Of a DNA stretch of 64,000 nt, positions 9,028-44,653 are shown in pieces. The DNA is from an uncultured Flavobacteriales bacterium (lineage in GTDB: Bacteria > Bacteroidota > Bacteroidia > CAIKAF01): assembly GCA_903825395.1 (NCBI GenBank), contig CAIKAF010000029.1, forward strand, positions 1 to 64,000. Direction: 5' to 3'. A model generated the notes under the pieces. The model was not told the DNA's origin. It did no database searches and saw only the letters and a list, made by a program, of their open reading frames with translations. The translations under genes were made by a program, and so were the position numbers. Every line of letters begins with the position of its first letter. Position 1 is the first letter of the stretch.

Positions 9028-9249
9028 GGAGTTTTTTGAACCTTTTCTGTGGATTTGATTCGAGGATGGAGTTGGGGGCTATATACCTGGCCTAGTCCAC
9101 GCTGGGCTTTAACTCTGCACTTGTTTTTATTTTATTCCTGACTTCTCCACCTTTTTTCGATTAATTAAACCTTGATTGTTATCGTGGGTTTGTATTTCTT
9201 GTCCTGCGGCATTTGTTGGACTAAATTGGACAAGTTGGGTACGTGTTGG
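9028..9249. other. Intergenic region 3' of def
   Basis: These 222 bp separate def from the family-B repeat. I see no gene and no clear terminator here. The gap continues beyond the repeat from 9467 to 9567, also without a gene. Confidence 0.5.
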
Positions 9250-9466
9250 AATTACGCGGCTCCTTTGCGAACATTGCGGCTCCCATGGCGGCCTTTGCGT
9301 TGAAAAATGGCTTTGGGTCTTGATGCTTTTTTTTACCGCAAAGGGCTCAAAGTCGGCGCAAAGGGCACAGAGTTTATGGGATGTGGCGAGGGTGTGCAGG
9401 AGTTTGGAGGCTCCTTTGCGAACATTGTGGTTCCTATGGCGGCCTTTGTGGTGAAAAAACCACCAA
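9250..9466 (+). repeat. Family-B dispersed repeat, about 1.4 units
   Basis: A segment beginning GGCTCCTTTGCGAACATTG at about 9258 recurs at about 9409, giving a period near 151 bp. Between them lie a T-run, ACCGCAAAGGGCTCAAAG, TCGGCGCAAAGGGCAC and GTGTGCAGGAGTTT. The same blocks occur in reverse orientation at 58980-59228 with a 149-bp period. Open frames across it are incidental. Related CAAAG-rich repeats are, to my knowledge, common in environmental bacterial genomes. Confidence 0.75.
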
Positions 9467-40786: not shown

Positions 40787-41422
40787 ATGAGCGCTACGGC
40801 AGAACGAAAAAAGTTATTTGTATCGCACAAAGACGAATCCATTCGCATGTTTAAAAATCCGATTATGGATTTTTTCTCTAGGGTTCATTTTGCAGTACCC
40901 TTGTTGATTTACATTCCTGTAATTCTATGGTTTGGTTACCAGGCCTTTTTTGTTTCTACGTTGTTGTTTTGGCAGGCTGCCTTGTTGTTGGGTGCCGGTG
41001 TCGCCTTTTGGTCGTTTACCGAGTACATTCTTCATCGCTTTGTGTTTCACTACCATCCAAGCTCGGAATTCGGCAAGCGCATTCATTTTATTGCGCATGG
41101 GGTGCATCACGATTATCCAAATGATTCTATGCGGTTGGTGTTGCCTCCAAGCATTAGTGTTCCCTTGGCATTTTTATTTTATGGCCTGTTTTGGTGGATT
41201 TTAGGCGGATTGTATACAGCCCCTTTTTATGCCGGTTTTGTATTGGGATATTTGTTGTACGATGAATTGCATTATGCGACGCACCATGCCAACATTCAAG
41301 CTAGTTGGTTTCAAAAGTTGAAAAAACACCACATGAAGCACCATTATCAGGATCCCGATATGGGCTTTGGAGTAAGCTCGAATGTGTGGGATTTCGTATT
41401 TAGAACCCGCTTTAAATCTTAA
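40787..41422 (+). CDS. Fatty acid 2-hydroxylase-like membrane di-iron enzyme
   Basis: This 211-residue protein of the fatty acid hydroxylase superfamily has about four membrane helices and a full histidine set: HRFVFHYH, HGVHHDYPND, HYATHH and HHMKHHYQD. The block HGVHHDYPNDSMRLVLPP closely follows the HGxHHxxPxDxxRLVxPP pattern of ceramide/fatty acid 2-hydroxylases. That makes alpha-hydroxylation of a sphingolipid or fatty acyl chain the best guess. Carotene hydroxylase (CrtZ) is a relative and was considered because blh is next door, but its motif spacing differs. The stop overlaps the convergent blh stop by four bases. Confidence 0.75.
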   Translation: MSATAERKKLFVSHKDESIRMFKNPIMDFFSRVHFAVPLLIYIPVILWFGYQAFFVSTLLFWQAALLLGAGVAFWSFTEYILHRFVFHYHPSSEFGKRIHFIAHGVHHDYPNDSMRLVLPPSISVPLAFLFYGLFWWILGGLYTAPFYAGFVLGYLLYDELHYATHHANIQASWFQKLKKHHMKHHYQDPDMGFGVSSNVWDFVFRTRFKS

Positions 41423-42165
41423 GATTTAAGCCGTTTAAACACCAAGTGGAATAAAAGGGCGTGGGGTAGGGTCAGAGCGGCAAGGAGTCCCAACAAACCA
41501 ATCATTTTTTCCTGTTGAGGAAACCAATTCCAGGCCAAGGCAAACATGCCCCAGGCAGATAGAGTAATGCCGGTGAACGACAACAGAAAAGTTCGGTTCA
41601 TGCTTCGAACTGTCTTTATAACGGCAAGAGCACTGTGGGGGGTGTGCCAAATTAAAAAATAGAGGGTAAAGTGAACAAAAAATGGGAGTAGGGTGCCAAG
41701 CAGGGAAATGCCCAGCAGTAAAAAGGCACGGGGGGATTTATTGTGGAGCATTAAAAAAACAACCCAAGCCAATGTGAAACCAAGTCCAAGCCAGGGAATC
41801 AACTCATCGGCCGGCAAAAGGTTTGAAATGGCGGGAGCGGTGTAGGATTTCCATTCCTGCAAATGAACGGCCAGCAGAAAAACAATATGAAGGAGTCCGC
41901 CAAACGCTTGCCTTCCACTTGAATTTTTTTGAAAATCGGTTTCGCCGAAGTGCCATGCAGAGATTAGCATAAAAGCGGGAAAGGCCCATTGAAGAGAAAA
42001 GTGCCAAGCTAAAAAAACCAAGCCAACAAGAATGATGTAAAGGCCTAAATACAGTGGCCAGGGCCAGGATTTAAGGAGGGTTCGGCCCAAGTACAAATCG
42101 GCAGCCCCATGCGGAACGCCGAAGGCGATAACGGCAATCATTAAGGCGGTTTCTAGAGAATTCAT
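41419..42165 (-). CDS. blh: Blh-family beta-carotene 15,15'-dioxygenase
   Basis: This 248-residue integral membrane enzyme of the Brp/Blh family would cleave beta-carotene into two retinals for the rhodopsin. It shows the family motifs FGVPHGAADL (H19, D23), SAWHFGETDF (H72, D77) and LIWHTPHSAL, whose histidines bind iron, within six or seven predicted helices. It is somewhat shorter than many Blh proteins. It lies directly downstream of the rhodopsin gene on the same strand, but a strong terminator sits in the 66-bp gap. Its expression may therefore depend on readthrough or its own promoter. Confidence 0.88.
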   Translation of the reverse strand: MNSLETALMIAVIAFGVPHGAADLYLGRTLLKSWPWPLYLGLYIILVGLVFLAWHFSLQWAFPAFMLISAWHFGETDFQKNSSGRQAFGGLLHIVFLLAVHLQEWKSYTAPAISNLLPADELIPWLGLGFTLAWVVFLMLHNKSPRAFLLLGISLLGTLLPFFVHFTLYFLIWHTPHSALAVIKTVRSMNRTFLLSFTGITLSAWGMFALAWNWFPQQEKMIGLLGLLAALTLPHALLFHLVFKRLKS

Positions 42166-42182
42166 ATTGGGCTAGGATATGA

Positions 42183-42219
42183 AAAAAGGCGGAATTCCTT
42201 TCGAAATTCCGCCTTTTTT
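42183..42219. terminator. Strong bidirectional terminator between rhodopsin and blh
   Basis: AAAAAAGGCGGAATT and AATTCCGCCTTTTTT form a perfect 15-bp inverted repeat around a short loop. On the minus strand it follows the rhodopsin stop by 12 bp and precedes the blh ATG by 17 bp, so most rhodopsin transcripts should end here. Confidence 0.88.
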
Positions 42220-42231
42220 GAATTCAATGAA

Positions 42232-42984
42232 TTAAGCTTCTTTTGACTGAGACAAAGCGTAAATTACTAAGCCAAAACCAATTTTGTTTACTGCATCACC
42301 GATGTTGTACACAACGTCCATCATTGGATTGCCTTCAGCAGCACCCCACATTCCGAACAAACCACCGGGAGTTCCAATGATGTATCCCAATGGATAGATG
42401 GCCCAACCTACCAATACAAACCATGCCAAAACGTTCACCGCACGAGCTACAGCGGGTCCTGCGCTAGCAGCCAATTTGGCCACTTCACCAAACCAAACTA
42501 GGTAAGCAATGTAGAAGTAAGCTGCACCAGACAACACACCCCACAATACAGAGTTGTCGCGGTCGATGGTTTCGCCAAAGAAACCGGTTACCAACATAAT
42601 TACAGAGGCAACAATCAATTTCCATAGCAAACCGATTTTAGCACCTGCTTTCTTGGTAATGAGGTAGAACTCTACGCACATTAAAGGAACAGTAAGCAAC
42701 CAATCCACATACCGGAAGAAGGTAGGAGAGGTTTCGGTAGCGGTGTAAAATTCACGCATGTAGTAATAGTGTACTGCTGCAATGAAGGTAATTAAACCAC
42801 TAACCAACAAGGAAGTTCTCCATTTTTCAGGAACATTCCTCATTTCAAGGAAAAAGAAGGCAGAAGCTGCCATCATAGCCATTGTACCTACAAAAAAGGT
42901 AAAGGCAGTGTAGGTCGACAAGTCGTACCGGGTTAGCATTTCCAACATTTTTGATGGATCTGCAGAAAGCAAGTGTTGTACCAT
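42232..42984 (-). CDS. Proteorhodopsin-type light-driven proton pump
   Basis: This 250-residue seven-helix microbial rhodopsin exports protons on illumination. The retinal Schiff-base lysine is K234 in GDAVNKIGFG, with counter-ion D230. Helix C reads RYVDWLLTVPLMCVEFYLI, giving the DTE triad D94, T98 and E105 of outward proton pumps. H72 pairs with D94 as in proteorhodopsin. Met102 at the spectral-tuning site predicts green absorption. An ungapped helix E alignment places Gly149 at the site that is Phe152 in proteorhodopsin and glycine in carotenoid-binding xanthorhodopsins. It is a single-gene unit between two strong terminators, with blh next. Confidence 0.96.
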   Translation of the reverse strand: MVQHLLSADPSKMLEMLTRYDLSTYTAFTFFVGTMAMMAASAFFFLEMRNVPEKWRTSLLVSGLITFIAAVHYYYMREFYTATETSPTFFRYVDWLLTVPLMCVEFYLITKKAGAKIGLLWKLIVASVIMLVTGFFGETIDRDNSVLWGVLSGAAYFYIAYLVWFGEVAKLAASAGPAVARAVNVLAWFVLVGWAIYPLGYIIGTPGGLFGMWGAAEGNPMMDVVYNIGDAVNKIGFGLVIYALSQSKEA

Positions 42985-43302: not shown

Positions 43303-44532
43303 TCAGTGGTGAGGATGGTATTTTTCGTGCACCTCAAAAAAGGGATGTTCGCCCGGAAAAGAAGGCTTAGGCAGTTCCGGCATATCATACTGCAATAACT
43401 TGTTCAACAGGGATTCCCGAACGAAAGCAACAGCTTCAGTAGCCGATTTGCCTTCGGCATTTGTGAGGACCACCACGCCAATATCAATGTCGGGAAAAAG
43501 GGAAACATGGCAATAGAAATTGCCTGCGCTGCCGTCGTGGGTAGATATTCGAGTGGCAGGATCGCGTCGGTTTAACCAACCCATTCCAAAGGTTTTTCGG
43601 CCAAAATGGATAAACTCATAGGTTTTTTTAGACATATCGGCGTTTTTACCTTTCAAACCACGCAATTGATGCTTTAGAAACAAGGTGTAATCCCAAAGTG
43701 GCATACTGATATCGCCAGCCGAAGCCAGCCAAATTGGAAGCTGATACGTTGTTGAGGGAGGGACGGGGCTAAAAAACGGACTTTTTGCATCGGTTTTCCA
43801 ATGCCCCCAAGGTTGGGCTGGGCTGATTCGGTTCGGCCAACCAATGGCATAGCGCAAGCCCAATCCTTTCTTAATGTATATATCCAATAACTGATTGAAG
43901 CTTTTGCCTGTGGCATATTCCATCATAAACGTTGCCAGGGCATAGCCTCCATTGGAATAGTGAATTCCAGAATCCAGTGGAGTTTTCGATAACAGCCATA
44001 GCGCGAATTTCGCTCGTTTTTGAAGGGCATTTCCTTTAAATGGGGGAATGGATTGGAAATCGGCCGGACGGGCAAGCTCGGCTACCTGAGCTCGATGGCT
44101 AAGTAAATCTGCCAAGGTGAAATTGGGGTAGCCGGGATGAGCTCTTTTTTTAAGTGCGGGAAACAAATCGAAAAAGGAGGTATTCCAACTTAGTTTCCCG
44201 GCTTCAACCAATCGGCCTGCAATGTATGAGGTAATACCCATGGAGTTGCCGCCCAAATGAAAATAGTTTTGTTCATTGATTAGATTGCCATTGGGCCATT
44301 TGTGGAGGCCCTCAAGTCGAACAGCCAACAACGTATCGCTGCGAAAAAGACCCGCACCAATAGCCGGAACCGGGAAGGCCCGATAGGTGTGGCCAATGGT
44401 TCGTTTAAGATGCGTAGTGTCGGTTAAAATGGCTTTCCACTGAATGGGGTCTTGTGCAAAAGTCCCTTTGACCAAACACATTAAAATGGCCAAGGCAAAC
44501 AGGGGATAACGGATAATTTTTTTTAGAGGCAT
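43303..44532 (-). CDS. Beta-lactamase-fold protein lacking the catalytic Ser-x-x-Lys
   Basis: This 409-residue exported protein has a signal peptide of about 26 residues (MPLKKIIRYPLFALAILMCL, ending TFAQ) and the class C beta-lactamase/serine hydrolase fold. YSN (192-194), HDG (332-334) and the helix GRLVEAGKLSW are present. The nucleophile motif is altered: where relatives have FHLGSNTK, this has FHLGGNSM, so the Ser is Gly95 and the Lys is Met98. It is probably a non-catalytic homologue. The start at 44532 is chosen because longer in-frame versions run through the divergent tRNA gene. Confidence 0.8.
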   Translation of the reverse strand: MPLKKIIRYPLFALAILMCLVKGTFAQDPIQWKAILTDTTHLKRTIGHTYRAFPVPAIGAGLFRSDTLLAVRLEGLHKWPNGNLINEQNYFHLGGNSMGITSYIAGRLVEAGKLSWNTSFFDLFPALKKRAHPGYPNFTLADLLSHRAQVAELARPADFQSIPPFKGNALQKRAKFALWLLSKTPLDSGIHYSNGGYALATFMMEYATGKSFNQLLDIYIKKGLGLRYAIGWPNRISPAQPWGHWKTDAKSPFFSPVPPSTTYQLPIWLASAGDISMPLWDYTLFLKHQLRGLKGKNADMSKKTYEFIHFGRKTFGMGWLNRRDPATRISTHDGSAGNFYCHVSLFPDIDIGVVVLTNAEGKSATEAVAFVRESLLNKLLQYDMPELPKPSFPGEHPFFEVHEKYHPHH

Positions 44533-44552
44533 AAACAAAAGTAAAGATATTT

Positions 44553-44560
44553 TACCTTTG
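44553..44560 (+). promoter_or_regulatory. -7 box of tRNA-Leu
   Basis: TACCTTTG is a perfect TAnnTTTG box 10 bp before the mature 5' end of the tRNA at 44571. Confidence 0.65.
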
Positions 44561-44570
44561 AAATCGAATT

Positions 44571-44652
44571 GCCGAAGTGGTGAAATTGGTAGACACGCAC
44601 GTTTCAGAGGCGTGTGTCGCAAGACGTGCCGGTTCGAGTCCGGCCTTCGGCA
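44571..44652 (+). tRNA. tRNA-Leu (anticodon CAG)
   Basis: This 82-base class II tRNA folds fully. The acceptor stem is GCCGAAG/CTTCGGC with discriminator A. The D stem is GTG/CAC with AAATTGGTAGA in the loop. The anticodon stem is CACGT/GCGTG with loop TTCAGAG. The long variable arm has the hairpin GTC-GCAA-GAC. The T stem is GCCGG/CCGGC with TTCGAGT. The anticodon CAG reads the leucine codon CUG. The 3' CCA is not encoded. Confidence 0.97.
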
Positions 44653-44653
44653 C

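Follow-up and report, generated by a model that had tools for sequence, protein, structure and literature searches.

An open reading frame on the minus strand of the window (the whole 64,000-nucleotide stretch analyzed here, from an uncultured Flavobacteriales bacterium) runs from position 44532 to position 43303 and encodes a 409-amino-acid protein that belongs to the PF00144 / MEROPS S12 fold and lacks both catalytic residues of that fold. Since the catalytic Ser and Lys are gone, acyl-enzyme chemistry by the family mechanism is, as judged from the sequence, not possible. We consider it probable that the product is a secreted, probably periplasmic pseudoenzyme, which binds a ligand without cleaving it and carries a putative metal-binding tail. 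An earlier note made from the DNA alone had placed an intact frame at 43303-44532, and this proved right; the strand, which the note did not give, is the minus one, and reading the same coordinates on the plus strand produces 14 in-frame stops. The gene is supported by the open frame, by a Pfam match and by its dN/dS values.

The Pfam PF00144 (Beta-lactamase) model matches residues 84-368 with an E value of 4.8e-23 and 82.3 bits against a curated cut-off of 27, which establishes fold and homology. The scores against NCBIfam equivalogs stayed far below their cut-offs (19.4 of 415 bits for class C beta-lactamase, 23.3 of 266 for AmpH and 18.4 of 385 for PBP4B). A profile built from ten rows, of which the pseudoenzyme is one (profile A3), matched Flp (4gdn), R61 (1cef), 4y7p and ClbP (3o3v), and the pseudoenzyme used alone as a query matched ClbP, 4y7p and R61. 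In the phmmer match to the ClbP peptidase, GSMSK of ClbP lies opposite GGNSM of our protein. The domain, with YSN and HxG in register, is thus common to the pseudoenzyme and to S12 enzymes such as R61 DD-peptidase, alkaline D-peptidase, ClbP and S. aureus Flp; unlike them, the pseudoenzyme is devoid of the catalytic Ser and Lys, has a His-rich C-terminal extension, and contains an N-terminal segment (residues 32-43) and a WPNG turn that are specific to its genus. AlphaFold2 run on a four-row alignment yielded a mean pLDDT of 30.6, and the model was not used; the putative active-site pocket is placed by alignment only.

The nucleophile motif reads FHLGGNSM (residues 91-98, positions 44239-44262, minus strand), with Gly95 standing for Ser and Met98 for Lys, while YSN (residues 192-194, positions 43951-43959) and HDG (residues 332-334, positions 43531-43539) are intact. 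The residue numbering of the earlier note is correct throughout, and the FHLGSNTK that it ascribed to relatives is found exactly in L008, one of the two nearest matches outside the genus; the other, L010, reads FHIGSNTK. Both come from another genus of the same family and align to the pseudoenzyme without gaps at the Ser and Lys columns, and L008 also has FHLG and HDGSAGTFYCH in common with it. Over the matched stretch, SxxK-bearing homologues from Bacteroidota (L008, L010, L009, L031 and others) are 26-39% identical to the pseudoenzyme and read GSNTK or similar at the motif. The signal peptide that the note had also called is consistent with an N-terminus that, by eye, resembles a type I signal peptide ending in AFAQ (residues 1-27, MPLKK...AFAQ, positions 44452-44532, minus strand).

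A search of 60 relatives retrieved an orthologue from five other genomes of the genus; with the source genome this makes six, and the 16 family and order genomes searched include no further member of the genus. Of the three motifs of an active enzyme, YxN and HxG / KTG are present in all six as YSN and HDG, and SxxK is absent from all six, the sequences being GGNSM in four, GGNTV in one and GGNAV in one. The Ser column therefore contains Gly in 6/6 genomes; in the Lys column, four genomes have Met and two have Val. The earlier note proposed checking whether the Gly/Met pair holds across a clade; given the split Lys column, it is Gly that defines the clade, and Met marks a part of it. The occurrence of the same loss in six genomes excludes a sequencing error and, because G001, G003 and G005 are differently named MAGs, a single assembly error does not explain it either. 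No genus member has Ser and Lys restored at the locus. Position 97, which the note had named as a possible shifted nucleophile, is Ser in four members, Thr in L006 and Ala in L007, the latter two forming the second sub-clade, and Ser97 was rejected on these grounds. A search for a Ser/Cys/Thr-x-x-Lys conserved within the genus as a replacement found none except Thr40-x-x-Lys43, which lies N-terminal to the stretch matched by Pfam and was not adopted as a nucleophile. A role of Met98 in binding metal was likewise discarded, the second sub-clade having Val at this position.

Outside the genus, all 24 outgroup rows with letters at the motif have Ser and 23 of the 24 have Lys (L041 has Thr). The 25 outgroup rows, one of which (L049) is without letters at the motif and was left out of this count, are matches passing E limits of 1e-10 to 1e-35 drawn from relatives, class, phylum and one further family, and are not a random sample; duplicates of the same place (L012-L014, L030, L042, L046, L050 and L053) were removed before counting. 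A maximum-likelihood tree calculated without the motif columns unites the six genus members in one clade (support 100/99) and places the L008/L010 pair in the group neighboring that clade (83/83). On this tree, the loss of Ser and Lys is one change of state, on the genus stem. Long end branches were flagged for L002, L018, L040 and L041, none of them within the clade of six. Among viral contigs, one distant relative was found (L055), and none was matched by the genus profile.

A different departure from the canonical motifs was noticed in 13 of the 25 outgroup rows, the FRxGSxTK group (L011, L015-L017, L036-L039, L044, L045 and L047-L049), where the Tyr of YxN is replaced by Trp, Phe or Gly and Ser and Lys are kept (the Ser/Lys motif is covered by letters in 12 of the 13 rows). 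Provided that the alignment is in register, these rows would be the mirror image of the Ser/Lys loss; a Tyr located one residue earlier may act as a substitute in some of them.

The 16 family genomes contain 66 distinct PF00144-matching ORFs (E up to 1e-10). Of these, 57 have both Ser and Lys, six are the pseudoenzymes with Gly, one (L084) reads Glu-x-x-Lys and two are without letters at the motif. L084, from genome G008, is a short PF00144 copy beside paralogues (YRIGEWSKTF); its first ORF, at about 303623-304225 of G008 contig 14, opens a tandem array of SxxK paralogues and is possibly a decaying copy. Three of the SxxK proteins are encoded by the source genome itself, which is compatible with the pseudoenzyme regulating one of these SxxK-bearing PF00144 paralogues in the same cell or acting as a decoy for it; in other families, regulation of active members by dead relatives is known, iRhoms being an example. 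As a query, however, the pseudoenzyme finds just one of the three paralogues (E 1.4e-5, 22% identity), and all three lie on other contigs, so that no linkage is seen. We regard such a role as very unlikely.

The dN/dS of the pseudoenzyme gene (NG86) is 0.060 between the source genome and G003 (dS 0.64), 0.054 between G001 and G005 (dS 1.74, near saturation) and 0.069 between G002 and G004 (dS 0.34); three other pairs are saturated at synonymous sites. For the same three pairs, in the same order, values of 0.169, 0.173 and 0.106 were obtained for the neighboring acyltransferase gene, 0.029, 0.029 and 0.031 for the thioredoxin-like gene, and 0.039, not computable due to saturation, and 0.065 for the Usp gene. 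By these codon comparisons, the gene has been kept under strong purifying selection since Ser and Lys were lost. Loss of catalytic residues across a clade under maintained selection is the mark of a pseudoenzyme, and, as far as the aligned genes indicate, this protein would count as one. That a decaying gene or a sequencing error accounts for the motif is highly improbable: nothing beyond the substitution itself speaks for it, and against it stand the open frame, the identical loss in 6/6 genomes and dN/dS values of 0.05-0.07. Together with the conserved locus, these values bear out the earlier proposal of selection rather than decay.

The orthologous locus is marked by a divergent neighbor, the tRNA-Leu(CAG) gene at 44571-44653 on the plus strand, which together with a divergent Usp gene lies beside the pseudoenzyme gene in the source genome and in the other five genomes of the genus. 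Beyond these two, the conserved neighbors are genes for a lipid A acyltransferase and a thioredoxin-like protein, and much of the remaining neighborhood is unlike between the two sub-clades. Comparison of the genus loci revealed no functional partner among the neighbor genes, and with conserved neighbors of this kind, an operon partner was ruled out. In other genera of the family, ten Usp-like loci (from matches as low as 25% identity, with flanks of up to about 1.5 kb, some of them cut by contig ends) showed no tRNA gene, and the tRNA-Leu/Usp arrangement is therefore seen only in the genus. Since just 38 bases (44533-44570) separate the start codon of the pseudoenzyme gene from the tRNA-Leu gene, the promoters of the two probably overlap or sit inside each other's gene. 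Downstream of the pseudoenzyme gene, genes for a rhodopsin (PF01036) and then a beta-carotene dioxygenase (PF15461) occupy 41419-42984 on the minus strand; both are at the locus in the source genome and G001 and not in G002 or G004, and they are unseen in G003 and G005, where the contigs end. Elsewhere in the window, at 9243-9458, a direct repeat of 65 bases occurs in two copies, 83% alike and 151 apart, in a stretch with no convincing gene.

We compared conservation close to the three motifs with that in the rest of the domain, using 48 motif-near columns marked by hand with the Ser and Lys columns excluded. Between the two sub-clades, 35 of 48 near columns are identical (73%) versus 117 of 280 (42%) elsewhere in the domain (Fisher p 7e-5, OR 3.8); a second pair gave 35 of 48 versus 129 of 280 (OR 3.2). 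Nine SxxK-bearing homologue pairs, picked by hand, gave OR values of 1.5-4.1, and the value for the pseudoenzyme is within this range. A measure based on outgroup-conserved columns is less favorable than this identity comparison. Near the motifs there are 11 such columns; genus rows retain 9-10 of them, and 16 of the 25 outgroup rows retain all. Elsewhere there are 30, with 23-24 retained in genus rows and 28-30 in 20 of the 25 outgroup rows. Two pocket-side positions have drifted: position 97 is Thr in 24/24 outgroup rows and Ser, Thr or Ala in the genus, and position 273 is Gly in 25/25 outgroup rows and Gly, Ala or Cys in the genus. Despite this drift, the alignment indicates that loss of the nucleophile did not free its surroundings.

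Conserved surroundings are predicted by ligand binding without acylation, and constraint from the fold could be part or the whole of their source. They lend indirect support to the ligand binding that the earlier note gave as an example of a non-catalytic role. An alternative is a scaffold or interaction protein, in which the fold would be maintained because of a surface or of the tail, with no ligand in the pocket. The residues that are invariant and specific to the genus (WPNG at 79-82, the N-terminal segment 32-43 and the tail) lie outside the three motifs, as new interaction surfaces might, and the conserved columns elsewhere are also mostly kept (the 23-24 of 30 per row given above). Near-motif columns are nevertheless still more constrained than the rest of the protein, and we consider a pure scaffold unlikely.

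Past the last helix of the domain, all six genus members have an extension of 28-30 residues with 5-6 His, in which a Pro-rich linker is followed by a His-rich end; its sequence is GEHPFFEVHEKYHPHH in the window (residues 380-409, positions 43306-43395, minus strand) and GHHPLLDGHDHHDH in the other sub-clade. The SxxK-bearing outgroup proteins, in contrast, stop 1-10 residues past this helix in 22/22 complete rows, a count that omits L010 (contig end), L047 (ambiguous base, read-on) and L049 (incomplete). The last 16 residues of the pseudoenzyme contain 5 His; none of the 43 other window ORFs of 150 amino acids or more, which were found mechanically and some of which may not be genes, has more than 2 there. 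Eleven His are invariant in the genus, and four of them (H396, H402, H406 and H408) are in the tail. A His-rich stretch conserved across a clade (here 6/6) is one feature of a His-rich metal-binding protein, and perhaps the tail binds metal. The gain of the tail and the loss of Ser and Lys map to the same branch.

The invariant His residues and the conserved surroundings of the motifs could also belong to a re-tooled enzyme with other chemistry, for example metal-dependent or His/Tyr-assisted hydrolysis with no covalent intermediate, in which the conserved residues His92, His146, His244, His332 and His342 and the His-rich tail would assist. In some peptidase families, many homologues are non-peptidases, usually with an active-site residue replaced, as in S9, where, according to MEROPS, such homologues are often enzymes of other kinds (PMC3964991). 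These five His, however, also occur in L008, an SxxK-bearing protein of the same family, and are therefore not a new metal site, and the domain matched by Pfam shows no new nucleophile that is conserved. To our knowledge, catalysis by the S12 fold without Ser and Lys has no precedent. We find a new catalytic activity rather unlikely.

The sequences thus look like those of an enzyme turned binding protein, and the following course of events can be proposed for the pseudoenzyme. On the genus stem, the catalytic Ser changed to Gly and the Lys to a hydrophobic residue, after which the gene was retained by strong purifying selection, with YSN, HDG and the columns next to them preferentially conserved. 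The protein would be secreted to the periplasm, where its pocket may bind the old type of substrate or a related ligand without cleaving it; candidate ligands are a peptide with a D-amino-acid end, an ester or an amide. It could then serve as a binding, sensing or sequestering factor, to which the new His-rich tail may add metal binding or metal-dependent attachment. A more specific version, which we put forward tentatively and with considerable doubt, is that a cell-wall- or D-peptide-processing hydrolase became a metal-coupled periplasmic receptor, in which a non-acylating pocket would take the ancestral ligand and the tail acquired on the same branch would couple this binding to a transition metal.

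Among the matches listed, the open-access literature contained no description of an S12 / PF00144 protein without its nucleophile, and no S12 protein is named as such in the available portions of PMC2266909, PMC7804941, PMC3964991, PMC1560137, PMC11112869 and PMC8780938. As far as the text available goes, all metazoan LACTB homologues keep the active-site motifs, by which they were selected (PMC2266909), and a 'pseudo-beta-lactamase' is listed among pseudogenes (PMC8780938). In ESKAPEE bacteria, fewer of the canonical motif residues are retained by two groups of hypothetical proteins resembling class C, the accessible part of the text being unspecific as to which (PMC11112869), and earlier cases of Ser loss may therefore exist there. 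Loss of a nucleophile under maintained selection is shared with pseudoproteases such as iRhoms, whose fold is unlike that of the S12 proteins, as far as the available sources describe them. The idea of a pseudoenzyme is an ordinary one; the genus branch and the tail are, as far as our searches of the open-access literature reach and among the matches listed, new.

The SxxK fold owes its definition to the nucleophile and has a central place in the biology of beta-lactams. By its domain match alone, the gene would be named a serine hydrolase or a beta-lactamase, which by sequence it cannot be. What the fold does beyond acylation is put to a natural test by a branch in which both catalytic residues have gone and the active-site surroundings have stayed. 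Before-and-after comparisons are possible, since the loss lies on a single stem branch and another genus of the same family has SxxK-bearing relatives.
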